64,000 nucleotides of DNA from the NCBI GenBank assembly GCA_946480465.1, contig CAMLJY010000009.1, positions 83,995-147,994 on the forward strand, in the 5' to 3' direction. The notes below the pieces were generated by a model, which was given only the letters and a program-made list of their open reading frames with translations, had not been told where the DNA came from and made no database searches. Each line of letters begins with the position of its first letter. Positions within the stretch are counted from its first letter, which is position 1. The DNA is from an uncultured Burkholderiales bacterium (lineage in GTDB: Bacteria > Pseudomonadota > Gammaproteobacteria > Burkholderiales > Burkholderiaceae). The translations under genes and the position numbers were made by a program. Shown here piece after piece: positions 20,617 through 42,595 of the stretch.

Positions 20617-22194
20617 TCAACCCTCGCGGCGCAGCCACCCGGCGATGCGCTCGGCCAGCATCAGGCAGGCGAGCTGCGTGGGCGTGCTGGGCAGCGCCGG
20701 CATCACCGAGGCATCGGCCACCACCAGGCCAGGCACGCCGCGCACGCGGCCGTGGGCATCGACGACCGCGCCGGGGTCGTCTGCCCGGCCCATGCGGGCG
20801 GTGCCCGCGGCATGCCAGGTGCCGGTGGCCCAGCGGCGCACGGCGGCTTGCAGCAGGTCGTCGCGGGTGAGGTCGGCCTCGCTCCACAGGGCGATGCCGC
20901 GTACTTCGGAGGCCAGCGCCGCGCTGCGCGCCAGCGCCCAGGCGTGGCGCACGCCGGCGGCCAGGCCGGCGACGTCCTTCGGTTCGGCACCGATGTTGAG
21001 CGCGACGCGCGCTTCGCCGGAGTCGTCCAGGTCCACGCGACCGCGCGACAGCGGCCGCGCCAGCAGCACCGACAAGGCATGCGCACGCCGCGCGCCGAGC
21101 AGCGCGGCCAGCGTGGGCCGGCTGGTGATGTCGACGCTGGTGACCGGCAGCAGGCCCAGGGCCGCGGCCTCGCCGCCGGCGTCCAGGCGGGCCAGCACCT
21201 GGTGCTGCGCGAGCGCCGGATCGTCGGGCTCGGCGTCGGGCCCACGGCCTTCGCGCGGCAGCAGCCACAGCGTGACCGCGGCATGGTCCATCAGCCCGGC
21301 GCCGACCCCCGGCAGATCGGCCACGCAGCGGCCGGTGCGCGCGCGGCAGGCGTCGGCCGGGCCGATGCCCGATCGCAGCAGCAGGGCCGGCGTGTGGATG
21401 GCGCCGGCGCACAGCACGACCAGGCCGGCGTGCAGCGTCCGCAGGCTCCCGCCGGGTGGCAGCGCTTGTACGCCGATGGCGTGCTGCCGCTGGTCGAACA
21501 GCACCCGCTGCACGGTGTGGTGGCCGCGCACCACCAGGTTGGCCCGGCCGCGCGCCGGCATCCGGTAGGCCACGGCGCTGGAGATGCGCAGGCCGCCGCG
21601 GCTGTTGGCGGGCAGCAGCCCGATGCCGCTGTGCGCGCTGCCGTCGTTCAGGTCCGGCAGCGGCGGCAGCCCGGCCTGGCGGCAGGCGTCATGGAAGGCC
21701 TGCTGCAGCGGCGCCAGGCGGCGCGGGCGCTGCACGGGGATGGGCCCGGCGTCGCCGTGCGCGGGGCCGCCGCAGTCCAGGTCGTTCTCCAGGCAGCGGA
21801 AGACGGGCAGCACCTGGTCCCAGGCCCACTCGTCGCCGGCCGCGGCGGCCCAGTCGGCGAAGTCCTGCGGCAAGGGCCGCAGCGCAATCGCGGCATTGGT
21901 GGCCGACGAGCCGCCCATCACCTTGCCGACCGGGTAGGGGAAGCTGGGCCGCGCTGCCGCGCCGGGCGGGCCCAGCGCCGCCATGCGCGGCCAGTTGAAG
22001 CCGGCCATGACGGGCCCGCGCGCCGAGTGCAGCGGCGGCGGCAGGTCCTCGATGCACGCGTGGTCCGGCCCGGCTTCCAGCAGCAGCACGCGCCGCCGCG
22101 GATCCTCGGACAGGCGCGCGGCGACCACCGCGCCGGCGGTGCCGCCGCCGACCACGATGGCATCGAAGACCTCGTCCGCCGCGGGCGCGCTCAT
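20617..22194 (-). CDS. GMC-family FAD-dependent oxidoreductase (left arm of the NRPS locus)
   Basis: 525 residues. The N-terminal Rossmann motif is IVVGGGTAGAVVAARLSE, followed by LLEAG and the GMC signature VGKVMGGSSATNAAIALRP. The C-terminal active-site segment is GTWHAAGTARMG with the catalytic His. The second catalytic position, usually His or Asn just before the last helix, aligns with Gln in STPTQLACLMLAERIAG. GMC enzymes oxidise alcohols or related groups with FAD. It is 81 bp downstream of the LuxR-type gene on the same strand and resembles the second GMC enzyme at the other end of the locus, suggesting both act on the product. Substrate unknown. Confidence 0.9.
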   Translation of the reverse strand: MSAPAADEVFDAIVVGGGTAGAVVAARLSEDPRRRVLLLEAGPDHACIEDLPPPLHSARGPVMAGFNWPRMAALGPPGAAARPSFPYPVGKVMGGSSATNAAIALRPLPQDFADWAAAAGDEWAWDQVLPVFRCLENDLDCGGPAHGDAGPIPVQRPRRLAPLQQAFHDACRQAGLPPLPDLNDGSAHSGIGLLPANSRGGLRISSAVAYRMPARGRANLVVRGHHTVQRVLFDQRQHAIGVQALPPGGSLRTLHAGLVVLCAGAIHTPALLLRSGIGPADACRARTGRCVADLPGVGAGLMDHAAVTLWLLPREGRGPDAEPDDPALAQHQVLARLDAGGEAAALGLLPVTSVDITSRPTLAALLGARRAHALSVLLARPLSRGRVDLDDSGEARVALNIGAEPKDVAGLAAGVRHAWALARSAALASEVRGIALWSEADLTRDDLLQAAVRRWATGTWHAAGTARMGRADDPGAVVDAHGRVRGVPGLVVADASVMPALPSTPTQLACLMLAERIAGWLRREG

Positions 22195-22275
22195 CCGCCG
22201 GCTCCGTGGCCGCGGAGGACCCGGGCTGCCGCGCACCGGCCGCACGGCTGGAGACGGGACGGGCTCATCGCGCTG

Positions 22276-23070
22276 TCAGCCCATGTACGCGCCGCGTTGC
22301 GCCGGCACGGGCGCCGCGGGCGGGCGCTTGCGCCCGGCGATCTGCCCGCTCGCGCTCAGCACGCCGAGCTGGATGGCCATCGCGATCGCCTGCTGCCGGT
22401 TCACCGCACCGAGCTTGCCGCCCGCGTTGCGCAGGTGATAGATCACCGTGTGCTCGCTGATGTCCAGCACGCGGCTGATCTCCCAGGTCGTCTTGCCCAT
22501 TGCGGCCCAGGAGAGACACTCGGTCTCGCGGCCGCTCAGGCGCGGCGCGCGCCGCTCCTGCTCGGCCTCGATGAGGGGCAGGCAGGCCAGGTGCAGGTAG
22601 CGCGAAAACAGCAGGGCCAGCGCCTGCAGCGCGTTCAGGGCCAGGTCGCCGCTGGGGCGGCAGGTGGCCAGCGTGAGGCTGCCGGCCGCGCCGCCCGTGC
22701 CGGGCACCGGCACGCACAGGCCGCCCTGCACGCCGTGCTGCAGCGCGATGGTGCGGAAGCGTTCGACGCACTCCATGCCGCGCAGCGTTCCCTGCGGCGG
22801 CGCCGCGGTGTGCCAGGCGTAGGGGACGCCGTTGCGCATCCAGTCGAGCCCGCTGGCGTCGGACAGGCCGACGAAGCATTCGATGCGGGCATGGTGCAGC
22901 TGGCTCGGCAGGTTGCTCAGGGTCCACACGGCCTGCGCGCTTCGGGCCGGACCGGGCAGGCGCATCGCCAATGCCCAGTGGTCGAAACCCAGCTGCGCCG
23001 CGAACGCGCTGGCGGAGTCCGTCAACTCGCGTTCGTCCGCGCAATTCGCCAACTGCTCGAAGCACGTCAT
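22276..23070 (-). CDS. LuxR-type regulator with divergent autoinducer-binding domain
   Basis: 264 residues. An N-terminal Autoind_bind-like domain (about 10-160) is joined to a LuxR/GerE helix-turn-helix (LSGRETECLSWAAMGKTTWEISRVLDISEHTV). A strong Shine-Dalgarno (GGAGG) precedes ATG 23070; the frame opens to 23103. Aligning by eye, the Trp and Tyr that normally line the acyl-homoserine-lactone pocket are Leu and Arg (NLPSQLHHARIE), while the Asp is kept (LSDAS). No luxI is visible in the window. It probably regulates the adjacent NRPS genes as a LuxR solo, perhaps with a ligand other than a standard AHL. Confidence 0.85.
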   Translation of the reverse strand: MTCFEQLANCADERELTDSASAFAAQLGFDHWALAMRLPGPARSAQAVWTLSNLPSQLHHARIECFVGLSDASGLDWMRNGVPYAWHTAAPPQGTLRGMECVERFRTIALQHGVQGGLCVPVPGTGGAAGSLTLATCRPSGDLALNALQALALLFSRYLHLACLPLIEAEQERRAPRLSGRETECLSWAAMGKTTWEISRVLDISEHTVIYHLRNAGGKLGAVNRQQAIAMAIQLGVLSASGQIAGRKRPPAAPVPAQRGAYMG

Positions 23071-23371: not shown

Positions 23372-26300
23372 CTAGCGCAGCACCGCGTCCGGCGGTTCCG
23401 TGGCGGGCTGTCCGGAGGCCGGCAGGTCGTGCAAGCACGCAATCGGAGCGTCCACGGCGATGCTGCGGTGCGTGCCCGGCACGCGGATGCTGCGGACGCG
23501 GCCGCGGGTGAAGTGGCGCCAGCCCCAGTCCGGCGCGGCGGTCTCGGGGTGGCCGTCGAATTCGGCCACCTGCCCCTCGGAGGCCCGCAGCAACAGGATG
23601 CCGGCCTGCAGGGGTGGGGGGCCCGGACGGTAGCGCCGGGTCGCCTCGACCACGCCGCGGAACACGGCCTGCACCGCCTGCCAGGCCCCGGCCTGCAGCG
23701 CCGCGCCGCCGTGGGCTGCGCCCATCTCGGCGGCGAACCACTGCTGCAGCACGTCCGGCGGCACCGTGCCGTGCTGCATCGGTGCCGGGGTGTCGAGCAT
23801 CAGCACCGGCTGCACCGTTTCGCCCTGCTGCTCGAGCTGGCGCGCCATCTCGAAGGCGATGACGCCACCGGAGGACCAGCCGCCGAGCCGGTACGGACCG
23901 TGCGGCTGCCGCCGGCGCAGCGCGCCGAGGTACAGCGTGGCGAAGGCTTCGATGCTGTCGAGCGCGGGCTGCTCGCCCGCCAGGCCGGGCGCCTGCAAGC
24001 CGTAGACCGGGCCGCCCCCTGCGCGTGCCAGCGTCGCCGCCAGGTCCTGGTAGCACAGCACGCCGCCGCCCGCGGGATGGACGAGGACCCAGGGCGCGCC
24101 CGGGCCCCCGCGTTGCAGGTCCACCAGCGGCGACCATGGCGCGGCGCGTGCGATGCGGCCCGCCAGGCCGGCCACCGTGCGGCCTTCCAGCAGCGCGCTC
24201 AAGGGCACGGGCTGGCCGAGTTGTTGGCTGAGCTGCGTGACCACCCGCAACGCGGCGAAGGACTGCCCGCCCAGCGCGAAGAAGTCTTCGTCCACGCCCA
24301 CGCGCGGCAGGCCCAGCACGGCCTGCCAGGTGGCGGCGATCTGCGCCTCCAGCGCGGTGCGCGGCGGCACCGTGGCGGCGTGCTGCGCGCTGGCGGCCTC
24401 GCCGTGGCGCTGCAGCGCCTGCCGGTCCAGCTTGCCGGTGGCGGTGAGCGGCAGGCGATCGAGCGGAATCAGCGCCGACGGCTGCATGTAGGCCGGCAGG
24501 CACTGCCGCAGATGGTCCTGCAGCGCGCTGCCGGGCGGCGCGGCACCGGGCGCCATCACGACGAAGGCGACCAGCCGGCGGCCCGCACCACGGGCCGGTG
24601 CCGAGTCAACGGCCAGCACCACGGCCTCCTGCACGTCCGCATGCGCCCGCAGGGCCTGCTCGATCTCGCCGGGCTCCACGCGCAGCCCCTGCACCTTCAG
24701 CTGGAAGTCGCTGCGGCCGAGCAGCTCGATCGAGCCGTCGGGAAGATAACGCCCGATGTCGCCGGTGCGGTAAAGGCGTTCGCCGCTGCGTGGATGCGGC
24801 ACGAAGGCCGCGGCGGTGCGGGCTTCGTCGCGCCAGTAGCCGCGCGCCAGGCCGTCGCCCGCGATGTGCAGGTGGCCGGGCACCCCGTCGGGTGCGTCGT
24901 GGCCGTCGTCGTGCAGCACGTGCCAGCGCTGGTTGGCCAGCGGCAGCCCGTAGGGAATGCTGGCCCAGTCCGGTGCCACGCGCTCCACGGGCCAATGGAT
25001 GGACCAGATCGAGGCCTCGGTCGCGCCGCCCAGGCTGATGACGCGCGCGGCCGGCGCGCACTGCGCGATGCGTTCCGGCAGGCCGAGCGCGATCCAGTCG
25101 CCGCTGAGCATCACGGTGCGCAGCGCGGGCAGGCTGCCGCCGCCGGCCTCGGCCGCATCGAGCAGCAGCTGCATCAGCGCCGGCACCGAGTTCCACACCG
25201 TGGCCCCGTGCGTGCGCACGGCGGCGAGCCAGGCGCCGGGATCCGGCACTTCGCCGGCGGGCGGCAGCAGCAGCGTGGCCCCGGCGGCCAAGGTGCCGAA
25301 GAGGTCGTACACCGACAGGTCGAAGCACAGCGAGGAGAGGCCGAAGACCACGTCGTGCTCGCCGATGCCGAAGCGGCGGTTGATGTCGGCCACCGTGTTC
25401 AGCGCGGCGCGGTGCTCGACCATCACGCCCTTGGGTTCGCCGGTGGAGCCGGAGGTGAAGAGCAGGTAGGCCAGGTCTTCGGGTCGCTGCCGCTCGGGCG
25501 GCGTGGTGCCGGGCTGGCCGCCCAGCGCGCTGTCGTCGACGCACCAGGCGCGCACGCCCGCGGGCGCTTCGAAGCGGGCGGCGATGGCCTGCCGCGTGAC
25601 GAGGTGGCGCGCCTCGGTGCTGGCCAGCAACCGCGTGATGCGCTGGCGCGGCCACGTGGGGTCGATCGGCACGTAGGCGGCGCCGGCGCGCAGTGCGCCG
25701 TACACCGCCACCGCCTGCTCCCAGCCCTTGTCCAGCAGCACCGCGATGCGCTCGCCCGGCTGCACGCCCGCGTCCAGCAGGGCATGGGCGAGCCGGTTGG
25801 CATGGCAGTGCAGCTGCGCATAGCTCATCGTGCGGCGGGCGTCGATCAACGCCGGCTTGTCGGGCCAGCGCCGCGCGCTGAGCGCCAGGCCTTCGTGCAG
25901 CAGGCCGGGCGGCCGCGGCGCGTCGCTGCGATTGGCCTGCTCGCGGCGTTGGCGCTGCTCGGCCGGCAGCAGCTCGTGCCGGGCCTGCTGCCATGCCGCG
26001 GCGTCGTCGGCCAGCGTGGCCAGCAACGCCTGGTAGGCCTGCCACATCGCATCGACCAGCCCGGGCGGGAAGCAGGCCTCGATCACGTCCCACACCGCCC
26101 ACAGCCGGCCGTCCTGCAGTTCCCAGAACTGGTGGTCCAGCATCACCTGCGGGGTCTCCAGGCAGGTGAAGCCCGGGCGCGCCGCCGTGGGCATGAACAG
26201 GCCGCTGCCGACGACGAAGGGGCAGGGCGCGCGGCCCGGCGTGCGCTGCGCCTGGTTCAGCGCCTGCAGCACGCGCACGCCGCTGCAGTGCGTGTGCTGC

Positions 26301-27508
26301 AGGTCCCGCACGATCTGCTGCTGCAGGCGGCACGCCCGCGCCGCGAACGGCGCGGGGTCGCGCCAGTCCACCTCCAGCGGGTACAGCGAGGCGAAGTTGC
26401 CGAACACCTCGCTGACTTGCGAATGCAGCGGCAGCCGATGCGTGACCATGTTGTTCAGCAGGAAGTGGCGGCTGCCGCTCCAGCGGGCCAGCACCTCGGC
26501 ATGCACGGCGAAGAGCGCGTTGCTCGGCGTCAGCCCGTGCTGCTGCGCCAGGGCCTTGAAGCGGGACCAGCGCGCCGCGGGCAGCAGCGTGTCGCGCCGC
26601 TCCAGCCGCGAGCGCTGGCGCGGGTCGAAGCCGCTGCGCACGGGGATGGGCGGTGGGCCGGGCAGGGCCGGCAGCCGCTGCGTCCAGTAATGCCACGAGC
26701 GCACCCCGGAGGCCGAGGCCTCGAGCCGCTGCAGCGCGAGCACGCAGTCGCGGTAGCTGATGCGCAGCTCGGGCAGCGCCGCAGCGGGCTCGTGGTAGAG
26801 CCGCTCGGCGTCCGCCAGCAGCCGTGCCGTGCCGTAGCCGTCGCCGAAGAAGTTGTTGTGGTTCCAGTGCAGGCGCACCTGGCCGTCGCCGTGCAGGCTC
26901 AGTGCGCACTCGAACCAGGGCCAGCGGTCCAGCGGCAGCGTGCGGCGCGACATCTCGGCCCGGGTGGCCAGGAGCATGCGCTGCTGCTCGTCCGGCGGCA
27001 GGCCGCGCAGGTCGTGTACCGGCAGGCTGACGGGGCGGAACACCGGTGGGCAGCGCAGCTGCATGTCGTCGCCCAGCACCGGCAGGTTGGCGCGCTGGCG
27101 CCGCAGCGCGGCGTTCAGCGCGCGCTCGTAGCGCTGCGGGTCCAGTCCGGGCCGGTCGGTCTCGACGTAGCAGTGCGGGCGGACGTGGAACTCCATCTGC
27201 TCGCTGTCGCCCATCGCGAACGCCGTCTGCAGGTCGCTGAGCGGAAACGGCTCGTGCCAGGCCGCGGGATCGGGCTCGATGGTGGGCAGCGGCGCTGTTT
27301 CCGGCGTGGCCGCGCCGCGGCGCAGCCCTTCGGCCAGCGCGGCCTTGTGCGCGCGCACCCGCTGCAGCAGCGCGGCGGTCAGGCCACCGCGCGGCCCGTT
27401 CAGCGCGATCTGCCCGTCCTCGTTCAGCGCCAGCCGCACGCCCTGGCGCGACAGCTCGGCCAGCAGCGCGGCCAGGTCGTCCTGCCCGGTGTCGCTCAGA
27501 CCAGCCAT
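23372..27508 (-). CDS. Single-module NRPS: docking-Cy-like C-A(Cys)-T-TE
   Basis: 1378 residues. Residues 8-62 form a TubC-type N-terminal docking domain. A condensation/cyclization domain spans about 85-500; its DxxxxD motif reads NNFFGD (218-223) and the GDFTS motif reads GNFAS, so it is a divergent Cy. The A domain (about 535-1035) has LLFTSGSTGEPKG, CFDLSVYDLFG and SLGGATEASIW. The specificity code by eye is D-L-Y-N-(M/L)-S-L-I-W, that of cysteine. The carrier domain has LGGQSF (Ser1083). A type I thioesterase follows with GWSSGG (Ser1212). The start overlaps the FAAL stop by 13 bp. It should add Cys to the FAAL-ACP acyl chain and release it by TE. Cyclization is uncertain given the motif changes. 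Confidence 0.93.
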   Translation of the reverse strand: MAGLSDTGQDDLAALLAELSRQGVRLALNEDGQIALNGPRGGLTAALLQRVRAHKAALAEGLRRGAATPETAPLPTIEPDPAAWHEPFPLSDLQTAFAMGDSEQMEFHVRPHCYVETDRPGLDPQRYERALNAALRRQRANLPVLGDDMQLRCPPVFRPVSLPVHDLRGLPPDEQQRMLLATRAEMSRRTLPLDRWPWFECALSLHGDGQVRLHWNHNNFFGDGYGTARLLADAERLYHEPAAALPELRISYRDCVLALQRLEASASGVRSWHYWTQRLPALPGPPPIPVRSGFDPRQRSRLERRDTLLPAARWSRFKALAQQHGLTPSNALFAVHAEVLARWSGSRHFLLNNMVTHRLPLHSQVSEVFGNFASLYPLEVDWRDPAPFAARACRLQQQIVRDLQHTHCSGVRVLQALNQAQRTPGRAPCPFVVGSGLFMPTAARPGFTCLETPQVMLDHQFWELQDGRLWAVWDVIEACFPPGLVDAMWQAYQALLATLADDAAAWQQARHELLPAEQRQRREQANRSDAPRPPGLLHEGLALSARRWPDKPALIDARRTMSYAQLHCHANRLAHALLDAGVQPGERIAVLLDKGWEQAVAVYGALRAGAAYVPIDPTWPRQRITRLLASTEARHLVTRQAIAARFEAPAGVRAWCVDDSALGGQPGTTPPERQRPEDLAYLLFTSGSTGEPKGVMVEHRAALNTVADINRRFGIGEHDVVFGLSSLCFDLSVYDLFGTLAAGATLLLPPAGEVPDPGAWLAAVRTHGATVWNSVPALMQLLLDAAEAGGGSLPALRTVMLSGDWIALGLPERIAQCAPAARVISLGGATEASIWSIHWPVERVAPDWASIPYGLPLANQRWHVLHDDGHDAPDGVPGHLHIAGDGLARGYWRDEARTAAAFVPHPRSGERLYRTGDIGRYLPDGSIELLGRSDFQLKVQGLRVEPGEIEQALRAHADVQEAVVLAVDSAPARGAGRRLVAFVVMAPGAAPPGSALQDHLRQCLPAYMQPSALIPLDRLPLTATGKLDRQALQRHGEAASAQHAATVPPRTALEAQIAATWQAVLGLPRVGVDEDFFALGGQSFAALRVVTQLSQQLGQPVPLSALLEGRTVAGLAGRIARAAPWSPLVDLQRGGPGAPWVLVHPAGGGVLCYQDLAATLARAGGGPVYGLQAPGLAGEQPALDSIEAFATLYLGALRRRQPHGPYRLGGWSSGGVIAFEMARQLEQQGETVQPVLMLDTPAPMQHGTVPPDVLQQWFAAEMGAAHGGAALQAGAWQAVQAVFRGVVEATRRYRPGPPPLQAGILLLRASEGQVAEFDGHPETAAPDWGWRHFTRGRVRSIRVPGTHRSIAVDAPIACLHDLPASGQPATEPPDAVLR

Positions 27509-29754: not shown

Positions 29755-30371
29755 GCCTGCACCCCGCGGATCAGCAATCCCAGTCCCACCAGCGCCATCG
29801 CCGCGCCGCTGCAGCGCAGCAGCTTGCAGGCGCGTTCGCGCCGCAGCGCGAGTTCGCCGATCAGCAGGCCGGCGACGTGCAGCAGCGCGGTGCTGGTGAG
29901 GAAGCCCAGGGTGTAGAAGGCCGGGCTCACCGAGCGCGGCATCTCGGCGCCGTGGGCATGGCCATGGCAGAGCCCGAAGAACAGCACGAACGGGAAGATC
30001 CAGTGCGGCCGCGCGTGGCGCCGGGCGGCGACCACCGCAATCCCGAGCACCACCACCGACACCGCGATGCCGGCCTCGCGCAGCGGCAGCGGCACCTGCA
30101 GCGCGCCGAGCAGGCCGCCCAGCGCCATCGCGATGACGAAGGCCAGCGGCACGCGCCACAGGCTGGCCGCGCCCAGTTGCGCGCTGACGATGCCCACGCT
30201 CACCATCGCCAACAGGTGGTCGAAGCCGAACACCGGGTGCAGCAGGCCGCTGGCGAATCCTTCGCCGTCGTCCGCGCCGTGCGCGGCGCACAGCGCCGGC
30301 AGCGCGCCGAGCACCAGCGCGAAGGCGAGCGCGCGCCCGCGACGTGAACCGCTCTTCACGATCGGATCCAT
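29751..30371 (-). CDS. HupE/UreJ-family metal transporter
   Basis: 206 residues with a signal-like first helix (ALVLGALPALCAAHG) and about six further membrane helices. Family motifs are HPVFGFDHLLAMVSVGI and GLCHGHAHGAEM, whose His/Asp are thought to carry the metal. HupE/UreJ proteins move Ni2+ (in some cases Co2+) and are normally found with hydrogenase or urease genes. None exist in this window. Here the gene is translationally coupled (ATGA) to the FAAL-ACP gene, 14 bp after the small membrane-protein gene. This places a metal transporter inside an NRPS operon. Confidence 0.88.
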   Translation of the reverse strand: MDPIVKSGSRRGRALAFALVLGALPALCAAHGADDGEGFASGLLHPVFGFDHLLAMVSVGIVSAQLGAASLWRVPLAFVIAMALGGLLGALQVPLPLREAGIAVSVVVLGIAVVAARRHARPHWIFPFVLFFGLCHGHAHGAEMPRSVSPAFYTLGFLTSTALLHVAGLLIGELALRRERACKLLRCSGAAMALVGLGLLIRGVQA

Positions 30372-30385: not shown

Positions 30386-30835
30386 TCAGCGCGCCGCGGC
30401 CAGGGCCGCGGCGGCGGGCGCGTCGTCGGGCTCCTCCTGCTGGGCCCAGCGCGTCGTCAGCACGATCACCCACAGCGCCAGCGCGTGGTGCAGGAAGTCG
30501 AAGGCGTGGATCACGTCGAAGGGCCGGCTCGCGGTCAGGGCGTGGGCCACCTGGTGCGCCAGGATGAAGAGTCCGCAGAAGCCGGCCAGCCCCGCGGCCA
30601 GCCAGCGGAACCAGCGCGCGTCGACGTGGCGCACCAGCATCGGCATCGCGACGTAGAGGGCCAGTAACACCGAAACGACGCGCAAGCCGATCGGCCCCGG
30701 GTCGCCGGCCCAGCGGCTGAAGTCGTTGCCGACCGCATCGCGCACCAGCGCCATCAGGAACATGGCGGCGAGGCTGGCCGTCATGGCCAGCCAGCCCTGG
30801 GCGATGCGGGCGGGGAGTGTGTCGTCGTGGTGCAT
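30386..30835 (-). CDS. Small integral membrane protein of unknown function
   Basis: 149 residues with four predicted membrane helices (about 14-32, 48-68, 78-98, 104-124). His residues cluster near the third and fourth helices (LAHQVAHAL, IHAFDFLHHAL), which could bind metal or heme. I do not recognise a family. ATG 30835 has a GGAGA ribosome-binding site. It is the first gene of the leftward operon and lies 14 bp before hupE, so it may act with that transporter. Confidence 0.75.
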   Translation of the reverse strand: MHHDDTLPARIAQGWLAMTASLAAMFLMALVRDAVGNDFSRWAGDPGPIGLRVVSVLLALYVAMPMLVRHVDARWFRWLAAGLAGFCGLFILAHQVAHALTASRPFDVIHAFDFLHHALALWVIVLTTRWAQQEEPDDAPAAAALAAAR

Positions 30836-31748: not shown

Positions 31749-32453
31749 ATGCCGGCCCCCGCCCCGATCGTCGAACTGCGTGACGTGAGCAAGACCTACG
31801 TCGAAGGCACGCAGCGCGTGCAGGCGCTGCGGCACGTCGACCTGGTGGTGCAGCCGGGCGAGTTCATCGCGCTGGCCGGCCCGTCCGGCTCGGGCAAGAC
31901 GACGCTGATGAACCTGGTGGGCGCGCTCGATCGTCCCAGCAGCGGCTGGGTGTCGGTGGGCGATCTGCGCTTCGACGCCGCCTCGCCGGTGCGCCTGGCG
32001 GAGCTGCGGCTGCGCCGCATCGGCTTCGTGTTCCAGGACTACAACCTGATGCCGGTGCTGTCGGCGATCGAGAACGTCGAGTACGTGCTGCTGCTGCAGG
32101 GCGTGCCCGCGGCCCAGCGCCGCCGCCGTGCCGACGAGGCGCTGTGCCTGCTGGGCCTGGACGGCTGCCAGCACCGCCGGCCGGCGCAGTTGTCCGGCGG
32201 CCAGCAGCAGCGGGTGGCGATCGCACGGGCGCTGGTGGGCGACCCGCTGCTGGTGCTGGCCGACGAGCCGACGGCCAACCTCGATTCCGAGACCGGCCAG
32301 GCCCTGATCGATGCGATGCGCCGGCTCAACCGCGAGCAGGGCCGGACCTTCATCCTGTCCACGCACGACGAGATGGTGATGCGCCAGGCCTCGCGCCTGG
32401 TGCGGCTGAAGGACGGCTGCATCCAGGCCGCCGATGTCCATGCCCTGGCTTGA
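31749..32453 (+). CDS. ABC transporter ATP-binding protein (LolD/MacB type)
   Basis: 234 residues with Walker A GPSGSGKTT, Q-loop FVFQDYNLMPVLSAIENVEY, signature LSGGQQQRVAIARAL, Walker B LVLADEPTANLDS and switch His in LSTHDEMV. The FQDYNLxPxLxxxENV sequence is characteristic of the LolD/MacB/FtsE class, which drives extrusion from the inner membrane by mechanotransmission instead of forming a classical channel. The gene overlaps the permease gene by 20 bp. Confidence 0.92.
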   Translation: MPAPAPIVELRDVSKTYVEGTQRVQALRHVDLVVQPGEFIALAGPSGSGKTTLMNLVGALDRPSSGWVSVGDLRFDAASPVRLAELRLRRIGFVFQDYNLMPVLSAIENVEYVLLLQGVPAAQRRRRADEALCLLGLDGCQHRRPAQLSGGQQQRVAIARALVGDPLLVLADEPTANLDSETGQALIDAMRRLNREQGRTFILSTHDEMVMRQASRLVRLKDGCIQAADVHALA

Positions 32454-34945: not shown

Positions 34946-36100
34946 ATGCCATCACCCTGGCCCCTCGCGCTCGCCGCCGCCGCCTGCATCGGCACCGCCC
35001 AGGCCGGCGGGCTGCAGGTGGCGGGCTACGTGAAGTCGCTCGCCATCGCCTCGCACAACGCGGACGAGGCAGGCCGGCCCACGCGCCTGCTGCTGAACCG
35101 GCTGCGCCTGAAGCTGGACCTGGCGCCCGCGCCGCACTGGGACCTGCACCTGGAGAACGACACCGAGTTCCGCTGGGGCAATGCCGCCGGCGCGGCACAG
35201 TGGCGGGCCGAGGATGCGCAGCCTTCGCGCCGGACCTGGCACTGGCGGTCCACGGTGTCCGACGGCACGCGCACGCAGCTGCGCAACGACGTGTTCCGCG
35301 CCATCGCCCGGCTGTCGCTGCACGACACCGACCTGCGCCTGGGCCGCCAGCGCATCGCGCTGGGCACCGGCCGGCTGTGGAGCACGCTGGACCTGCTGAA
35401 CCCGCTGAATCCGCTGCAGGTGGAGCGCGACGAGTACGTCGGCGTCGATGCCTTGCGCGTCGACCAGCGCCTGGGCGAGCTCAGCGCGCTGACCGCCGTG
35501 TACGCGCCGATGCCCGGTGGCGGCAGCCCGCGCTGGGTGCTGCGCGGGCGTGGCCATGCGGCGGGTGCGGACCTCGGCATCACGCTGGCCCGCTACTGGG
35601 ACGATCGGCTCGCCGGCCTGGACGTGGCGACGCAGTGGCAGGGCATCGGCCTGCGCGGCGAGCTGACGGCGGTGCGCGCGGGCAGCGGGATGGTGGCCGG
35701 GGCGGCCGAGGGGCGGCACCACGTCGCGGCGCTGCTGGGGGCCGACTACGCCTTCGCCAACACGCTGACGCTGTCGGTCGAGGCCTACCTGAGCACGCAG
35801 GACGAGGCGCAGCGGCGCCGCCAGTTCGCGGCCGACCGGCTGCGCGGCCAGGTGCAGCCGCCGGGCACGCGCTACGTGGGCGTGGTCGCCAGCTGGGAGT
35901 TCACGCCGCTGCTGAAGGCCACGCTCGTCGGCCTGGTGCAGCCGCGCGACCGCAGCCGCTTCGGCGCCGCATCGCTGGCCTTGTCGCTCGACGAGGACCT
36001 GGTGCTGCAAGGCGGCGTGCAGGGCTTCGGCGGTCCGCGTGATGGTGAGTTCGGCCGCGCCCGGTCGCTGGGCTGGCTGCAGCTGCAGTGGTTCTTCTAG
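34946..36100 (+). CDS. Putative outer-membrane beta-barrel protein
   Basis: 384 residues with a signal peptide (PLALAAAACIGTAQA). The body has alternating amphipathic strands rich in Arg, Trp and Asp (LLLNRLRLKLDL, DLRLGRQRIALGTGRLW) and ends LGWLQLQWFF, a C-terminal aromatic of the kind recognised by the BAM complex. No named family is recognised with certainty; it has the look of porin or alginate-export-type barrels. Between the Lol-like exporter and the second NRPS gene, it could be the outer-membrane exit or receptor for the product. Confidence 0.72.
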   Translation: MPSPWPLALAAAACIGTAQAGGLQVAGYVKSLAIASHNADEAGRPTRLLLNRLRLKLDLAPAPHWDLHLENDTEFRWGNAAGAAQWRAEDAQPSRRTWHWRSTVSDGTRTQLRNDVFRAIARLSLHDTDLRLGRQRIALGTGRLWSTLDLLNPLNPLQVERDEYVGVDALRVDQRLGELSALTAVYAPMPGGGSPRWVLRGRGHAAGADLGITLARYWDDRLAGLDVATQWQGIGLRGELTAVRAGSGMVAGAAEGRHHVAALLGADYAFANTLTLSVEAYLSTQDEAQRRRQFAADRLRGQVQPPGTRYVGVVASWEFTPLLKATLVGLVQPRDRSRFGAASLALSLDEDLVLQGGVQGFGGPRDGEFGRARSLGWLQLQWFF

Positions 36101-36107
36101 GAGATGC

Positions 36108-36179
36108 GATGGAGCCGATGGACCCGGTCGACCCGATGGACGCGATGGACGCGATGGACGCGATGGACGCGATGGAGCC
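36108..36179 (+). repeat. 9-bp in-frame tandem repeat in the NRPS leader
   Basis: Eight 9-bp units related to GATGGACGC; the middle four (36135-36170) are identical. They encode a Met-Asp-Ala leader before the docking domain. Unit length is a multiple of three, so slippage would change leader length without a frameshift. Confidence 0.85.
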
Positions 36180-39100
36180 CATGCAGCACTTGCTGGCCGA
36201 GCTGCAGGGCCGCGGCATCCGCCTGTGGGTCGATGGCGACACGCTGCGCGTGCAGGGCGCGGCGCCGGACGACGGCCTGCGTGCCGCGTTGCGCGAGCAC
36301 AAGGCTGGGCTGATCGCGCTGCTGTCGCGGCCCCAGGCCGCGCCCGCGCTGGTGCACGATGCCGCGGGGCGCCACCAGCCGTTTCCGCTCACCGGCCTGC
36401 AGCGCGCGTACTGGCTGGGGCGCGACCGGGCGATCGAGCTGGGCGGGGTCGCCACGCACCTGTACCTCGAGTTCGACTGCCGCGGCCTCGACCTCGACCG
36501 CCTGAACGCCGCGCTCGTGCGCCTGATCGAGCGCCACGACATGCTGCGCGCCGTGCTCGACGGCGAAGGCGGCCAGCGCGTGCTGCCGCAGGTGCCGGCG
36601 TACCGCATCGCGGCCGCCGACCACCGCACGTCGGACGACGAGGCAGCACAGGCCGCCGCGCTGGCCACGCGCGAGGCCTTGTCGCACCAGGTGCTGGAGC
36701 CGTGCGCGTGGCCGCTCTTCGACATCCGCGCGACGCTGATGCCGCAGCAGGCGCTGCGGCTGCACGTGAGCCTGGACCTGCTGGCCATGGACGGCTCCAG
36801 CATCCAGCTGTTCTTCGCCGAATGGCATGCGCTGTACCACGGCCGGCCGCTGTCCGCGCCGCCGGCGATCGGGTTCCGCGACTGCGTGCTCGATCGCCTG
36901 GCCGAGCGCGAGCGGCCCGCCGGCCGGGCCGCGCGCCGCTACTGGGCGCAGCGCCTGGACACGCTGCCGCCCGCGCCCGAGCTGCCCTTGCGCCAGGACC
37001 TGGCCGCGCGCCGTGCGGTGCCGCGGTTCAGGCGCCGCTCGATGCAGCTCGCGGCGCCGCGCTGGGCGGCCTTGAAGCAGCGCGCGGCGCAGGCCGGCGT
37101 CTCGCCTTCGTGCCTGGTGCTGTGCGCCTTTGCGGAGCTGCTCGCGCGCTGGAGCCGCGCGCCGCGCTTCACCATCGCGCTGACGACCGGGCTGCGCGAA
37201 GGCCGGCATCCGGACCTTGCGCGGGTGCTGGGCGACTTCACGTCCGTCGTGCTGCACGAGATCGACCGCGCCGACGCGGCGGAGGGCCTGCTCGGCTTCG
37301 CGCAGCGCCAGCAGCAGCGCCTGGCGCAGGACCTGCAGCACCGCGCGCACGACGGCATCGAGGTGCGCCGCGAATGGGCGCGCCGGCGCGGCATGGGGGC
37401 GCAGGCGGCGATGCCGGTGGTCTTCAGCAGCGGGCTGGGCTGGGGCGGCGCGGAGGGCTGGAACCTGGCGCAGTTCGGCCCGTGCGTGTTCAGCGTCAGC
37501 CAGACATCGCAGGTCTGGCTGGACCACCATGCCACCGAGCTGCACGGTGCCCTGGTGCTGGTGTGGGACGCGGTGGACGCGGTGTTCGAGCCCGGCGTGC
37601 TCGATGCGATGTTCGAGGCTTACGGCCTGCTGATCGAGGCCCTGGCCGAGGGCCACCCGTGGCCCGTGGCCACGCTGCCGCCCGCGATGCAGGCCCGGCG
37701 CGACGCGGCCCGGCCCGCGGCCAGCCCGCTGCCGCAGCAGCCGCTGCATGCCGCCGTGGTGCAGCAGGCGCTGCGCCGGCCGCAGGCGCGCGCGATCGTC
37801 GCCGCCGGGCGGACGCTCACTTTCGGTGATTGGCTGCACGAAGCCGCGGCGGTGGCCGACCAGCTGCTGGCGCAGGGCCTTGCGCCCGGAGATCTGGTGG
37901 CGATCGTGATGCGCAAGGGCTGGGCGCAGGCGGTGGCCGCGCTGGGCGTGCTGCTGGCGCGCGGCGCCTACGTGCCGATCGATGCCGACCTGCCGCCGCG
38001 GCGCCGCGAAGCGCTGCTGCAGGCTTGCGGTGCCACGCAGGTGCTGGTGGAGCCGGACGCGTCCGGCGCGGTGCCGGGCCGCACCCGGGCGGCGCCTGGC
38101 GACACCCGTGCGGTGCCTGGGGACGCCCGGACGACGCCCGGCGACATCGTGGTGCATGAGCTGCGCGCCGGCGCGGCCGCGGGCTTCAGCGACGTGCATG
38201 CGCTCTCGCTGCAGTCCGACCCGGCCCGCGCCGCGTACCTCATCTTCACCTCGGGCAGCACCGGCGAGCCCAAGGGCGTGCTCATCGAGCATGCGGGCGC
38301 GGCCAACACGGTGCTCGCCGTCAACCGCCTGCTCGCGGTGGGCGAGGGCGATGCGGTGCTGGGCGTCTCGTCGTTGGGCTTCGACCTGTCGGTGTACGAC
38401 CTGTTCGGCGTTCCCGGCGCCGGCGGCGCGCTGGTGCTGCCGGACGCGCGGCACGCCCACGATCCCGGGCACTGGGCGGCGCTGATGCGCGAGCACCGCG
38501 TCACGCTGTGGAATTCGGCGCCGCAATCGCTGCGCATGCTCCTGGACACGCAGCCCGCCGGCGCGCCGCTGCCCGGGGCCCTGCGCCACGTGCTGTCCAG
38601 CGGCGACTTCCTGCCGCTGGACACGCTGCAGCGCCTGCGCGGCCACGGTTGCGGTGCGCGGCTGTTCAGCCTGGGCGGCGCCACCGAGGCCTCGATCTGG
38701 TCGGTCGTGCACGAGGTGCAGGCCGTCGACCCCCGCTGGACCAGCATCCCCTACGGCCGCGCCTTGCCGAACCAGACCGCGCAGGTGCTCGATGCCGCGC
38801 TGCGGGAGACGCCGGACCACGTGCGCGGCCGCATCTACATCGGCGGCATCGGGCTGGCGCGCGGCTACCTGGGCGACCCGCAGCGCACCGCCCTGCGCTT
38901 CATCGTCCATCCCGCCACCGGCGAGCGGCTCTACGACACCGGGGACATCGGTTGTTACGACGACGAGGGCCGCATCCTGATCCTGGGCCGCGACGACGGG
39001 CAGGTGAAGATCCGCGGCCACCGGGTCGAGCTGGGCGAGGTCGAAGCCGCGCTGCTGCGCCACCCGGCGGTGGACCAGGCCTGCGTGCTGGCGCCCGCCC

Positions 39101-41001
39101 CGGGCGGCGGCGCGCGCAGCCTGGCCGCGTTCGTGCAGCTGCGCGCCGGCGCGGCCACGACGCCGCAGGCGCTGCGCGCCCACGCCGCCGAGCTGCTGCC
39201 CGACTACATGCTGCCGCCGCGCATCACGCTGCTGCCGCGCCTGCCCGTGTCGGCCAACGGCAAGATCGACCGCCGCGCCCTGGCGGAGTGGCCGCAACAG
39301 AACGCGCAGGACGTGCAGGTCCCGCGGGACGTGCAGAGCGCGCCCAGCCCCCCGGTCCGCAGCGACACCGAGCGCCTGGTCGCCGCCGCCTGGGCGCGCG
39401 TGATCCCCGGCGTCGCGCTCGGCATCGACGACAACTTCTTCGACGTGGGCGGCGACTCCGTGCTCGCCACCGAACTGCTGCGCGAACTCAATGCCGCGCT
39501 GCCATTGCCGCTGCAGATGCACGAGCTGTTCGAGAACCTGAGCATCGGCGCGCTGGCGCGCTGGGTCGACGCGCGCGGCGAGGCCGCGGCGGCGGACGGC
39601 GGCGGCCGGGCGCTGGCCTCGGCGCAGGTGCTGGCGGCGGACGTCGAACGTGGCCTGGAGGCGCTGGACGCCGGCTTCGGCGGCGCGCCGGGCCGTGCGG
39701 CCGAGCGGGGCGCTGCGCTCGATGCCGGGCCTCGCGCCGGCGCGGCCGACGTAGCGTCGCCGCGCTGCGTGCTGCTCACGGGTGCCACCGGCTGGGTCGG
39801 CGCGCACCTGCTGGCCGAGCTGCTGCGCGGCACGCGGGCCGAGGTCGTCTGCCTGGCCCGGGGCGGGCCGGCGCAGTCCGCGCGTGACCGTGTGCTGGCG
39901 CGGCTGCGGCAGGTGGCGCCGGACGCCGATGCGCGGTGGCTGCCGCGCGTGCGCGTGCTGGCCGGCCGGCTGGACGCGCCGGCCTTCGACCTGTCGCCCG
40001 AGGACTGGGCCGACCTGGGCCAGCGCATCGACCGCATCTACCACCTGGCGGCCTCGCTGAACCTGGGGCTCGACTACGCCGCGCACCGGCGCCACAACGT
40101 GCTGCCGCTGCTGGAGCTGCTGCATTTGGCCGGCAGCACGCGCATCAAGCCGGTGTTCGTGCTGTCGCCGGCGGCGGTGTGCCGGCGCGTGCTTGGCGGC
40201 CGGGTGCAGGTGCTGGGGCAGGCGCGGGTGCACGAGGGCGCCGAGGGCCTGGCCTCGGCCTACGCGCAGTCGAAGTGGGTGGCCGAGCAGCTGTGCTGGG
40301 CCGCGGCGCAGCGCGGCCTGCCGGTGCGGCTGTACCGCTGCTCGCACGCGCTGCCGGCGGCCGGCACCGGGCTCGCGCCCGGGCACGACAGCCACCTGAT
40401 CGCGCTGCGCGCCGCCGCGCTGGCCGGCGTGCGGCCGCCGGGGTCCGCGCGCCTGCACGGCCTGCCGGTCGATGCGCTGTGCCGGGCGCTGCTGGGTGAC
40501 TCGCTGCAGCGGCCCGGGCAGTCGGCCGTCGTGCACCTCGAGCATCCTGCGCCGCCAGCCGTCGCCAGCGTGCTGCGCGGGCTGCGCGAGGCCGGCTTCG
40601 GCGCGGCCGGCGAGGGGGTGGGCGGCGAGGTGGTGGGCGGCGAGGTGGTGGGCGGCGAGGTGGTGGGCGGCGAGGTGGCGGGCGGTGAGGTGGCGGGCGC
40701 CGATGTGGTGGCCGGCTGGCCGCAGTGGCTGCGCCGCTGCCGGGATGCAGCGCGTCATCTGCCGGCGGATCAGGCCGCGCTGGCGGCCGTGCTGTTCGAG
40801 CCGCGCGACGGCGTGGCTCCGGTGGAGCTGATGTTCGGCGCGCCGGCGCTCGATCCCGGGGACGACGCGGCGGCGCTCGCCGGGCAGGGGGTGCCGGACC
40901 TGGCGGTGGCCTGGCGCTGCCTCGCGCTGGACTGGCTGGGCGGCGCGCACGAGCGCGGCCCATGCCCGTCCGCGGCAGCGGCACCGCTGGTGCAGGCCTG
41001 A
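36109..41001 (+). CDS. Single-module NRPS: docking-Cy-A(Cys)-T-thioester reductase
   Basis: 1630 residues. After a repetitive Met-Asp-rich leader (1-25), residues 26-75 form a TubC-type docking domain. A canonical heterocyclization domain follows (FPLTGLQRAYWLGR, DLLAMD, LGDFTS, SQVWLDHH). The A domain (about 520-1060) has LIFTSGSTGEPKG, FDLSVYDLFG and SLGGATEASIW; the code by eye is D-L-Y-N-L-S-L-I-W, an exact cysteine code. The carrier has VGGDS (Ser1117). The C-terminal reductase has GATGWVG near 1225 and YAQSK (Tyr1385, Lys1389). It should make an acyl-thiazoline and release it reductively as aldehyde or alcohol. The ATG has AGGAG 5 bp upstream. Three in-frame tandem repeats are listed separately. 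Confidence 0.93.
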   Translation: MEPMDPVDPMDAMDAMDAMDAMEPMQHLLAELQGRGIRLWVDGDTLRVQGAAPDDGLRAALREHKAGLIALLSRPQAAPALVHDAAGRHQPFPLTGLQRAYWLGRDRAIELGGVATHLYLEFDCRGLDLDRLNAALVRLIERHDMLRAVLDGEGGQRVLPQVPAYRIAAADHRTSDDEAAQAAALATREALSHQVLEPCAWPLFDIRATLMPQQALRLHVSLDLLAMDGSSIQLFFAEWHALYHGRPLSAPPAIGFRDCVLDRLAERERPAGRAARRYWAQRLDTLPPAPELPLRQDLAARRAVPRFRRRSMQLAAPRWAALKQRAAQAGVSPSCLVLCAFAELLARWSRAPRFTIALTTGLREGRHPDLARVLGDFTSVVLHEIDRADAAEGLLGFAQRQQQRLAQDLQHRAHDGIEVRREWARRRGMGAQAAMPVVFSSGLGWGGAEGWNLAQFGPCVFSVSQTSQVWLDHHATELHGALVLVWDAVDAVFEPGVLDAMFEAYGLLIEALAEGHPWPVATLPPAMQARRDAARPAASPLPQQPLHAAVVQQALRRPQARAIVAAGRTLTFGDWLHEAAAVADQLLAQGLAPGDLVAIVMRKGWAQAVAALGVLLARGAYVPIDADLPPRRREALLQACGATQVLVEPDASGAVPGRTRAAPGDTRAVPGDARTTPGDIVVHELRAGAAAGFSDVHALSLQSDPARAAYLIFTSGSTGEPKGVLIEHAGAANTVLAVNRLLAVGEGDAVLGVSSLGFDLSVYDLFGVPGAGGALVLPDARHAHDPGHWAALMREHRVTLWNSAPQSLRMLLDTQPAGAPLPGALRHVLSSGDFLPLDTLQRLRGHGCGARLFSLGGATEASIWSVVHEVQAVDPRWTSIPYGRALPNQTAQVLDAALRETPDHVRGRIYIGGIGLARGYLGDPQRTALRFIVHPATGERLYDTGDIGCYDDEGRILILGRDDGQVKIRGHRVELGEVEAALLRHPAVDQACVLAPAPGGGARSLAAFVQLRAGAATTPQALRAHAAELLPDYMLPPRITLLPRLPVSANGKIDRRALAEWPQQNAQDVQVPRDVQSAPSPPVRSDTERLVAAAWARVIPGVALGIDDNFFDVGGDSVLATELLRELNAALPLPLQMHELFENLSIGALARWVDARGEAAAADGGGRALASAQVLAADVERGLEALDAGFGGAPGRAAERGAALDAGPRAGAADVASPRCVLLTGATGWVGAHLLAELLRGTRAEVVCLARGGPAQSARDRVLARLRQVAPDADARWLPRVRVLAGRLDAPAFDLSPEDWADLGQRIDRIYHLAASLNLGLDYAAHRRHNVLPLLELLHLAGSTRIKPVFVLSPAAVCRRVLGGRVQVLGQARVHEGAEGLASAYAQSKWVAEQLCWAAAQRGLPVRLYRCSHALPAAGTGLAPGHDSHLIALRAAALAGVRPPGSARLHGLPVDALCRALLGDSLQRPGQSAVVHLEHPAPPAVASVLRGLREAGFGAAGEGVGGEVVGGEVVGGEVVGGEVAGGEVAGADVVAGWPQWLRRCRDAARHLPADQAALAAVLFEPRDGVAPVELMFGAPALDPGDDAAALAGQGVPDLAVAWRCLALDWLGGAHERGPCPSAAAAPLVQA
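38068..38145 (+). repeat. 21-bp in-frame tandem repeat in the A domain
   Basis: Three full 21-bp units and a partial fourth encode AVPGRTR, AAPGDTR, AVPGDAR, TTPGD. They fall in a surface loop before core motif A3 and look like a recent local expansion. Confidence 0.8.
40621..40695 (+). repeat. 15-bp in-frame tandem repeat in the reductase region
   Basis: Five 15-bp units related to GGCGGCGAGGTGGTG encode GGEVV, GGEVV, GGEVV, GGEVA, GGEVA near residues 1505-1529 of the reductase-type NRPS, probably a flexible loop. Confidence 0.88.
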
Positions 41002-41005
41002 TTCC

Positions 41006-42595
41006 ATGGATGAGCGTCCACCGGCGCGCCAGCACCATGACGTGCTGATCGTCGGCGCCGGCTCCGCCGGCTGCGTGCTGGCGCGCCGGCTCAGCGAAGG
41101 CGGGAAGCGGCGCGTGCTGCTGGTCGAATGCGGCCCGCAGCGGCCCGCCGCGCCGGCGCTGGCCGCGGTGCAGGATGGGCGGCAGCCCGCGGTGATGCCG
41201 GGGCTGAACTGGACGTACCGCTGTGCCATCAAGGGTGAAGCGCCGGCGCAGGCCACGGGCGGCGCCGGAGTCTTCGATTTCGAGGCCGGCCGGCTGGTCG
41301 GCGGCTCGTCGGCCGTGAACGCGGCGCAGGCGCTGCGCCCATCGCCGGCCGACCATGCGCGCTGGGCGGCCGCCTGCGGGCCGGCCTGGTCCTGGGACGC
41401 CGTGCTGCCCGCCTACCGCGCGCTCGAGGATGACCCGCTGGGCCCCAGCCCGCTGCACGGCCGCGGCGGGCCGCTGCCGATCCGGCGCGACGAGCCCGGC
41501 GCGCTGACCGCCGTGCATGCCGGCTTCGCCGAGGCCTGCCTCGCGCATGGCTTCGGCATCACGCCGGACCTGAACGACCCGGCCACCTCCGGCGTCGGCC
41601 TGATCCCGAAGAACGTGGTCGACGGGGCACGCGTGTCCGCCGCGGACGCCTGGCTGGCGCCCGCGCTGGCGCGCGACAACCTGCAGCTGCTGGCCGGCGC
41701 GCAGGTTTTGCAGTTGCTGTGGCGCGGTGCAGGGTGCTGCGCGGGCGTGCGCGCGCTGGTGGACGGCCGGCTGCAGGACCTGCAGGCCGACGCGGTGGTG
41801 CTGTGCGCCGGCGTGATCGGCACGCCGGCGCTGCTGATGCGCTCCGGCGTGGGCGAGCCCGATCACCTGCGGGCGCTGGGCCTGCCGGTGCAGCTGCCGC
41901 TGCGCGGCGTGGGCGAGCACCTGCTGGAGCACCCGGTGATCGGGCTGTGGGCCTGGCCCCGGCCCGGCGTGGTGCGCCAAGGCGAACCGATGCGCCAGAC
42001 CCTGCTGCGCTGCGGCGCCGATGGCGGCGCCGGCGAGGAGCTGCACCTGTGCGTGATGAGCGGCATCGACGTGCGGCGCCAGTTCCCCCGCCTGGCGGCG
42101 GCCGCGCCGCAGGACGCCGCGGCCGGCCTCACCATCACCTTCAACCGCCCGGTCTCCCAGGGGCGCGTGCGCCTGGCCGGTGCCGACCCGGCGCTGCCGC
42201 CGCGCATCACGATGAATTGCCTGGGCGACCGGCAGGACCTGGCGCCGCTGTGCAGCGGCGTGCGCCTGGCCTGGTCGCTGCTGCAGCGCCCGCCGCTGCG
42301 CACGCTGTTCCAGGACCTGCTGGCGTGGAACGACGGCATGCTGCGCTCGGCCGCCGCGCTGGAGCAGGCGGTGCGCGCCTTCGTGCGCCCGGCGGCCCAT
42401 GCCTGCGGCACCGCGCGCCTGGGGCCCGACCCGGACGGCGGTGACGTGGCCGCGCCCGATGGCCGCGTGCACGGGGCGGAGAACCTGTGGATCGCCGACG
42501 GCTCGGCCATTCCCAGCCTGCCCAGCGCGCCTCCGCACCTTGCGGTGCTGATGCTGGCCGAGCGCATCGCCGGCCGGGTCGGCGCCCGCGCTTGA
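41006..42595 (+). CDS. GMC-family FAD-dependent oxidoreductase (right arm of the NRPS locus)
   Basis: 529 residues with FAD motif LIVGAGSAGCVLARRLSEGG, LLVECG and GRLVGGSSAVNAAQALRP. The C-terminal active site has PAAHACGTARLGPD (catalytic His), and the second catalytic position is His (SAPPHLAVLMLAERIAG), as in many GMC alcohol oxidases and dehydrogenases. It begins 4 bp after the reductase-NRPS stop, so it is co-translated. A natural substrate would be an alcohol or aldehyde made by reductive release, but this is inferred. It parallels the GMC gene at the left end of the locus. Confidence 0.9.
   Translation: MDERPPARQHHDVLIVGAGSAGCVLARRLSEGGKRRVLLVECGPQRPAAPALAAVQDGRQPAVMPGLNWTYRCAIKGEAPAQATGGAGVFDFEAGRLVGGSSAVNAAQALRPSPADHARWAAACGPAWSWDAVLPAYRALEDDPLGPSPLHGRGGPLPIRRDEPGALTAVHAGFAEACLAHGFGITPDLNDPATSGVGLIPKNVVDGARVSAADAWLAPALARDNLQLLAGAQVLQLLWRGAGCCAGVRALVDGRLQDLQADAVVLCAGVIGTPALLMRSGVGEPDHLRALGLPVQLPLRGVGEHLLEHPVIGLWAWPRPGVVRQGEPMRQTLLRCGADGGAGEELHLCVMSGIDVRRQFPRLAAAAPQDAAAGLTITFNRPVSQGRVRLAGADPALPPRITMNCLGDRQDLAPLCSGVRLAWSLLQRPPLRTLFQDLLAWNDGMLRSAAALEQAVRAFVRPAAHACGTARLGPDPDGGDVAAPDGRVHGAENLWIADGSAIPSLPSAPPHLAVLMLAERIAGRVGARA

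Follow-up and report, generated by a model that had tools for sequence, protein, structure and literature searches.

A divergent FAAL/NRPS locus with variant heterocyclisation and reductase-like domains, probably for a fatty-acyl, cysteine-derived small molecule, in an uncultured Burkholderiales bacterium

How would a fatty-acid starter be joined to cysteine by two separate one-module nonribosomal peptide synthetases (NRPSs), each of which carries a domain with altered active-site residues? This question is raised by a locus of 12 genes in two divergent arms, located at positions 20617..42595 of a 64,000-nt stretch of contig CAMLJY010000009.1 from an uncultured Burkholderiales bacterium (hereafter, the window). 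Judging by its domain content, it is an orphan locus that probably makes a small molecule from a fatty-acyl chain and cysteine. The locus is mostly built from known kinds of genes; the unusual part consists of two domain clades, a variant heterocyclisation domain (Cy*) and a variant thioester-reductase-like domain (R*), and of their pairing. Outward from ~30.9 kb, the minus arm encodes a 149-aa membrane protein, a HupE/UreJ-family protein, a starter module made of a fatty acyl-AMP ligase and an acyl carrier protein (FAAL-ACP), the first NRPS (NRPSm), a LuxR-type regulator and a GMC-family oxidoreductase (GMC1), whereas the plus arm encodes, in this order, a LolA_like protein, an ABC ATPase, a duplicated FtsX permease, a β-barrel protein, the second NRPS (NRPSp) and a second GMC-family protein (GMC2). 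The gene content given in an earlier note made from the sequence alone holds at the stated coordinates: Pfam searches identify both GMC proteins, the LuxR-type regulator, the FAAL with its carrier domain, the pair of one-module NRPSs, HupE/UreJ, LolA_like, the ABC ATPase and the FtsX/MacB permease, which is duplicated. The intergenic divergent promoter region from which both arms start (30836..30961) is indeed 126 bp long. The earlier note had overlooked a thioesterase (TE) domain and the altered Cy domain in the minus arm, the reductase-like end of the plus-arm NRPS, the TubC_N domains and the 149-aa protein. A codon-usage gene finder, itself trained on most of these genes, returned an identical gene set. 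The GC content across the locus is 71-78% (2-kb windows), and several genes overlap (FAAL/NRPS by 13 nt, HupE/FAAL by 4 nt, and also ABC/FtsX).

The starter module (27496..29754, minus strand, 752 aa) consists of a FAAL fused to a carrier domain, as in FAAL-initiated NRPS clusters, and ends in an acidic C-terminal tail; its best PDB matches are FAAL-type enzymes. From Pfam matches, relatives and motifs, NRPSm (23372..27508, minus strand, 1378 aa) can be read as TubC_N-Cy*-A-PCP-TE, and NRPSp (36112..41001, plus strand, about 1629 aa, with a start that is uncertain within a 9-bp repeat) as TubC_N-Cy-A-PCP-R*, where A and PCP stand for adenylation and peptidyl carrier protein domains; a TubC_N docking domain thus opens both proteins in Pfam. 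The A-domain residues of the two NRPSs, read by eye without a scoring tool, are DLYNMSLIWK and DLYNLSLIWK, which we take to be cysteine-type codes. The DxxxxDxxS motif of Cy domains is present in the plus-arm NRPS only.

The Cy* domain of NRPSm (25964..27256, minus strand) departs from canonical Cy domains at two sites. Its solved relatives in a PDB search are Cy domains of EpoB, BmdB, Irp2/HMWP2 and PchE, and alignment with EpoB places an Asn at the first Asp of DxxxxD and a Gly at the Thr of 'VLTS', whereas the Asp of 'LDHQ' is kept. NRPSm thus has neither DxxxxDxxS nor the Thr of the Asp-Thr dyad. The passages of PMC9547227 available to us report that mutation of this dyad, or of a nearby Gln, severely impairs cyclodehydration. 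Since Cy* lacks the dyad Thr, the formation of a thiazoline, which the earlier note attributed to Cy domains, cannot be taken for granted in NRPSm. The change recurs among relatives: in the best 120 of 737 NRPSm relatives, DxxxxDxxS occurs in one and Thr at the aligned site in three, the Cy* family having mostly Gly there, but also Ala, Ser or Val. Named sources of the listed relatives include Streptomyces, Amycolatopsis, Micromonospora, Deinococcus and proteobacterial metagenome-assembled genomes, so that Cy* relatives span Proteobacteria, Actinobacteria and Deinococcota.

In a tree of 61 Cy domains, sampled by hand from the listed relatives of NRPSm (18 of 120) and NRPSp (12 of 51), from 8 other proteins and from genome loci, a branch with 100/100 support divides 25 domains with the Cy* pattern, plus the second-module Cy of the fused protein P0082, from the 35 others. 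Taken strictly as one clade, these 25 receive a support of 73/93, because the pattern missed P0082, whose second Cy likewise lacks the Thr. A recent duplication of the two NRPSs of the locus was rejected, since their Cy domains lie on opposite sides of the 100/100 branch. Among the closest known systems is AzsO of azaserine biosynthesis, which, as described in the passages available of PMC10445470, resembles NRPSm in being a stand-alone module with a docking domain whose dyad Thr is replaced; in AzsO, however, DxxxxD is intact and both dyad positions are Asn, whereas the first Asp is lost from Cy* and the dyad Asp is still present in the window protein.

The Cy domain of NRPSp belongs to the other side of the tree, but it too departs in part from the standard. 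In the window protein and 51 listed relatives, DxxxxDxxS is present in 52/52, and the Thr site is occupied by Ser in 50, Asn in one and Thr in one; the dyad Asp is kept in 48/52, including the window protein, and absent in 4/52. The R* domain (39769..41001, plus strand) shares with the thioester reductase domain of MxaA (4u7w) the Rossmann motif, the Tyr and the Lys, and differs from it by a Pro opposite the Thr of 'VST', which we take to be a catalytic residue; the Thr-Tyr-Lys triad is therefore incomplete. Among the window protein and the 51 R-domain-bearing proteins of the best 120 listed NRPSp relatives, this position is Pro in 51/52 and Ser in 1/52, with Tyr in 52/52 and Lys in 51/52, whereas 14 distinct other R domains from the fetched loci have Thr (11), Ser (1), Gly or Leu (2) and never Pro. 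Because R* has Pro for Thr, reductive release from NRPSp appears doubtful.

No close NRPSp relative with R* was detected in our partly overlapping genome samples by a profile search that considered the best candidates per genome. In a sample of 399 genomes, the sole nearly full-length match (G208) corresponds to another cluster, and three others (G221, G331 and G271) reach the R region with lower scores, G208 and G221 being the two loci inspected; in a further 240 genomes, none of the matches listed extends past position 1126 of the 1537 positions of the NRPSp profile. Plasmid matches are below 60% identity. The NRPSp gene also contains three tandem repeats, at its start (36107-36176, unit of 9 bp), in the A domain (38063-38146, 21 bp) and in R* (40608-40716, 15 bp); all units are multiples of three, and length variation could alter the protein.

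The order in which the modules would act can be approached through relatives in which they are fused. In nine of the nine listed fused proteins that run from TubC_N to TE (2,446-2,504 aa), a Cy domain with DxxxxDxxS comes first and a Thr-less Cy second, and two more fused proteins without TE have Ala at the second Thr site. The loci of genomes G546 and G428 present the same order, their second Cy grouping with Cy* in the tree, and in G546 a FAAL-KS-AT-ACP gene adjoins the NRPS gene. These arrangements point to Cy* modules being placed, as a rule, after a Cy module, and for this reason we favour, tentatively and with somewhat less than even confidence, a serial line from FAAL-ACP to NRPSp (thiazoline), then to NRPSm (second cysteine) and to release by the TE. 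Further points in its favour are the Pro of R*, the FAAL-PKS (FAAL-polyketide synthase) genes beside Cy*-A-PCP-TE in G877 and G872, and the contig sizes common to NRPSp and NRPSm relatives (see below). The FAAL would activate a fatty acid and load the fused ACP, which would pass the acyl chain to NRPSp, whose Cy domain would couple cysteine and close the thiazoline. The chain would then move in trans to NRPSm, where Cy* would attach a further cysteine, probably through an amide bond and with the usual cyclodehydration left out, before the TE freed the product. The GMC enzymes would oxidise this product or an intermediate, the LuxR-type protein would switch the locus, and the LolA/LolD/FtsX/barrel set would export the amphiphile. 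Chain transfer from FAAL-ACP to an NRPS is suggested by the gene overlap and the docking tail. The small acyl-cysteine or acyl-thiazoline product proposed in the earlier note fits these parts, apart from a thiazoline made by NRPSm.

Several observations weigh against the serial order. NRPSp has Ser for the dyad Thr in its own Cy domain, so that the thiazoline step is not certain, and R*, which keeps the nucleotide-binding motif, the Tyr and the Lys, may still be reducing. P0082 is the only one of the nine fused proteins included in the tree. In G877 and G872, a FAAL-PKS gene adjoins a gene for Cy*-A-PCP-TE, the former being in G877 a FAAL-ACP-KS-AT-DH-KR-ACP protein in Pfam, and the Cy* module is the sole NRPS. 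TubC_N domains bind acidic tails; the presence of TubC_N on both NRPSs and of an acidic tail on FAAL-ACP only fits two parallel acceptors better. Such tails are also found on the chain donors of G546, G428, G877, G872, G491 and G789, and are absent in four other module proteins compared.

A branched line is possible on these grounds, although rather unlikely in our view. FAAL-ACP would dock to either NRPS, NRPSp giving an acyl-thiazoline freed by its terminal domain and NRPSm an N-acyl-cysteine acid freed by the TE, with one GMC oxidase for each. The distribution of TubC_N domains and acidic tails is consistent with this scheme, as are the two GMC genes, one in each arm, and the loci in which Cy*-A-PCP-TE is the only NRPS next to a FAAL-PKS; the fused proteins, which put both module types in series, and the missing Thr of R* argue against it. 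Improbable, but of interest, is a line in which both variant domains have left their usual reactions: R* would modify the tethered thiazoline instead of releasing it (for instance, by converting C=N to a thiazolidine in line), and Cy* would join cysteine without heterocyclisation, or capture the chain otherwise, before the TE acts.

The serial line assigns export to the genes at the start of the plus arm: a LolA_like periplasmic protein (30962..31744, PF17131, 159.6 bits), a LolD/MacB-type ABC ATPase (31749..32453, PF00005), an 835-aa FtsX/LolCE-like permease with two FtsX halves (32434..34941, two stretches each of PF02687 and PF12704) and a predicted outer-membrane β-barrel of 384 aa (34946..36100), all on the plus strand. 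The barrel announced by the earlier note has no Pfam match, but is predicted by AlphaFold (mean pLDDT 86.6), with porin/Occ/AlgE-like matches in Foldseek. As in the Lol lipoprotein pathway, there is a LolA-like family member, a LolD-like ATPase and a LolC/E-like permease; unlike in that pathway, the first belongs to PF17131, the permease is duplicated in one chain and falls below the NCBIfam lolCE cut-off (247.5 versus 362.45 bits), and a barrel is part of the run. LolB was matched by none of the 12 scanned locus genes, in scans that included no search aimed at it.

The claim that the locus has its own export system is not supported by comparison with other genomes. A barrel profile search of the 399-genome sample, drawn at family level, retrieved 13 genomes at an E-value of 1e-25 or better (11 of the 13 below 1e-100); we compared 14 barrel loci, these 13 and one from an order-level sample (G384), leaving out the weaker matches of G154, G191 and G252. 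FAAL/NRPS genes accompany the export set in two of the 14 loci, those of G546 and G428 (the latter on two contigs). In eight, LolA has an FtsH gene as its neighbour; seven of these eight (G734, G575, G778, G657, G452, G696 and G451) also have a phosphoketolase gene, identified by Pfam XFP in G734 and by BLAST in the others, next to the ATPase, the two ends being ~20 kb apart in G451. A motif scan of the fetched barrel-locus stretches (4-40 kb) found the adenylation-domain motif in G546 only, so the LolA/ABC/FtsX/barrel set is mostly found without this motif nearby. A different Cy-NRPS locus, that of G491, encodes a relative of the 149-aa protein, followed by HupE, a GMC oxidase, a thioesterase, a serine acetyltransferase and a TonB-type receptor; after these come a pair of FtsX permeases, LolA_like, a protein without Pfam match that is barrel-like by eye, and an ATPase. 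Transporters of this kind are thus found with several cysteine-NRPS loci without being specific to them.

In G546 (L163:741-6993), the neighbours of the barrel gene encode a fatty acid desaturase, a class III aminotransferase-domain protein of 837 aa, whose N-terminal half presumably resembles acyl-ACP reductase, and a 796-aa protein without Pfam match; genes of similar length occupy the barrel-adjacent position in G428 (L161:5501-11686).

The FtsH/phosphoketolase surroundings would suit a general lipid-handling unit that adjoins the cluster by chance and has no part in the export of its product. We consider this quite improbable, since the export genes form a tight run with NRPSp in the window, the NRPS loci of G546, G428 and G491 bear LolA/ABC/FtsX genes, and relatives of the barrel and of NRPSp recur on contigs of equal size. 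The latter comparison used relatives of two proteins on contigs of equal nucleotide size as a proxy for linkage, drawing on 51 listed entries for NRPSp, 120 for NRPSm and 106 for the barrel. Equal sizes were found 8 times for NRPSp/NRPSm, 5 times for NRPSp/barrel and twice for barrel/NRPSm, versus 0.09, 0.07 and 0.17 coincidences, respectively, in jittered controls, and a contig of 289,640 nt is common to all three lists. The other seven sizes that NRPSp and NRPSm relatives have in common are 119,377, 51,699, 28,113, 20,943, 19,687, 17,113 and 11,568 nt. Equal contig sizes strongly suggest a single contig, short of proof. The two arms are thus probably linked in other genomes, and the idea that they are never linked, which the earlier note had named as grounds for refuting its reading, finds no support in these coincidences or in the two barrel loci with adjoining FAAL/NRPS genes.

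An origin of sulfur in NRPSm appears very unlikely. In this scheme, NRPSm would be a sulfur-donating or chain-cleaving module, whose PCP-bound cysteine captures the acyl chain via sulfur to leave a thioacid-type end, similar to what has been put forward for photoxenobactins and partly for thiotetronates. The altered Cy* without dyad Thr is in line with it, and the parts of the two source papers at hand propose a thioester-forming Cy with TE off-loading (PMC9396620) and a Cys-charged PCP as sulfur source (PMC5518548); the corresponding domains, Cy4 of PxbG (PMC9396620) and the Cy of TueB (PMC5518548), nevertheless retain DxxxxDxxS in these same parts, and no cysteine lyase or desulfurase was detected among the 12 cluster genes scanned. 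Aldehyde capture, in which an acyl-thiazoline aldehyde freed by the R domain would be condensed by Cy* with PCP-bound cysteine to a thiazolidine, was dropped as a lead because G877 and G872 combine FAAL-PKS and Cy*-A-PCP-TE without an R-domain match in the 36-40 kb examined, because G546 and G428 fuse Cy to Cy* without R, and because R* itself lacks the Thr.

The oxidation step of the serial line would fall to GMC1 (20617..22194, minus strand, 525 aa, Pfam GMC_oxred_N/C), whose closest solved structure is an HMF (hydroxymethylfurfural) oxidase (6f97), and GMC2 (41006..42595, plus strand, 529 aa, also GMC-family in Pfam). Both score below the NCBIfam MftG cut-off (TIGR03970; 325.5 and 332.6 versus 387.45), and GMC1 is below that of BetA; its reaction could be the oxidation of a thiazoline or an alcohol. 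A contig search for NRPSs found a GMC1-like gene in five of at least 79 NRPS loci. In four (L007, L009, L025 and L043), it stands immediately after a Cy-A-PCP gene, which in L009 includes a methyltransferase domain in Pfam; in L006, a GMC gene lies ~2.4 kb before the NRPS genes. L007, L009 and L043 also have an NRPSm-like gene with a TE match and 51-55% identity over Cy*-A-PCP, the Cy* pattern being matched in L009 and L043, but not in L007. In three of these loci, a third NRPS (~1,300 aa), whose start is Cy-like, comes after the GMC and thioesterase genes (L007:14264-18187, L009:21204-25259 and L025:15266-19171; Pfam thioesterase in L007 and L009).

Two small membrane proteins open the minus arm. 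The HupE/UreJ-family protein (29751..30371, minus strand, PF04955, 171.7 bits) has a relative in G491. With regard to a thiazoline metallophore, for which a metal-chelating product or a TonB receptor in the locus would speak, HupE is present and no TonB receptor was found among the 12 locus genes scanned, whereas G491 has one of TonB type. The 149-aa protein (30386..30835, minus strand) belongs to no family and has relatives in the NRPS loci of G546, G428 and G491. The LuxR-type regulator (22276..23070, minus strand, PF00196 and PF03472, RhlR/QscR-like) carries the autoinducer-binding domain at 44.2 bits for a cut-off of 23, as in LuxR proteins that respond to acyl-homoserine lactones. Aligned by eye, it keeps the Asp and the second Trp of the RhlR pocket, but not the first Trp; these residues presumably contact the ligand. 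The divergent spacer contains a 16-bp imperfect palindrome, CT-N12-AG (30886..30901, 12/16 symmetric), which is only a lead as a candidate lux-box-like site, because the window as a whole has 17 such sites and one is also present in 1.4% of shuffled spacers.

Pyochelin/yersiniabactin-type lines likewise combine Cy-A(Cys)-PCP modules with a terminal TE; the locus differs from them by a FAAL fatty-acid starter in place of an aryl-acid one, by modules split over divergent arms and by the Cy* and R* variants, and neither a salicylate-type starter nor a PchG-like gene was found among its 12 genes. FAAL-initiated lipopeptide clusters such as that of mutanoclumpin share the FAAL starter and a terminal R domain, but the mutanoclumpin system is one multi-module line, and the passages available of PMC12403116 mention no Cy domain. 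Searches of the open-access literature, with limited word sets and at the level of passages, found no publication on this gene combination and no paper combining 'GMC oxidoreductase' and 'thiazoline'. Cluster-prediction tools would presumably annotate the two condensation domains as heterocyclases and the end of the plus-arm NRPS as a reductase, and hence predict incorrect structures. Should the function of Cy* and R* have changed, many actinobacterial and proteobacterial orphan clusters would have to be re-read, and the GMC oxidase recurring beside such modules may be the redox partner that they lack. At its size, the locus could be expressed whole.

The MutS encoded in the window shares 73-78% identity with the MutS of eight genomes of the family-level sample and 73%, over its C-terminal half, with that of a Ramlibacter metagenome-assembled genome, compared with 57% for G384, 56% for Pollutimonas and 53% for Pantoea; the window thus probably comes from the Burkholderiales family to which the Ramlibacter genome belongs. 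Outside the locus, a LysR gene divergent from a set for a Rieske ring-hydroxylating dioxygenase and its reductase (42662-46761) adjoins the cluster end. At lower coordinates, there are a pair encoding an Xre-type antitoxin and a RES-domain toxin (13792-14627), and genes for a NucA/NucB-type DNase domain protein and then a SUKH-1 (SMI1/KNR4) protein (16729-18250), which lie in the 2-kb interval of lowest GC content (59%) and look like an imported toxin-immunity pair. Finally, a 6-bp repeat of 19.5 copies (49789-49904) lies within a gene for a GntR/aminotransferase (MocR-type) regulator.

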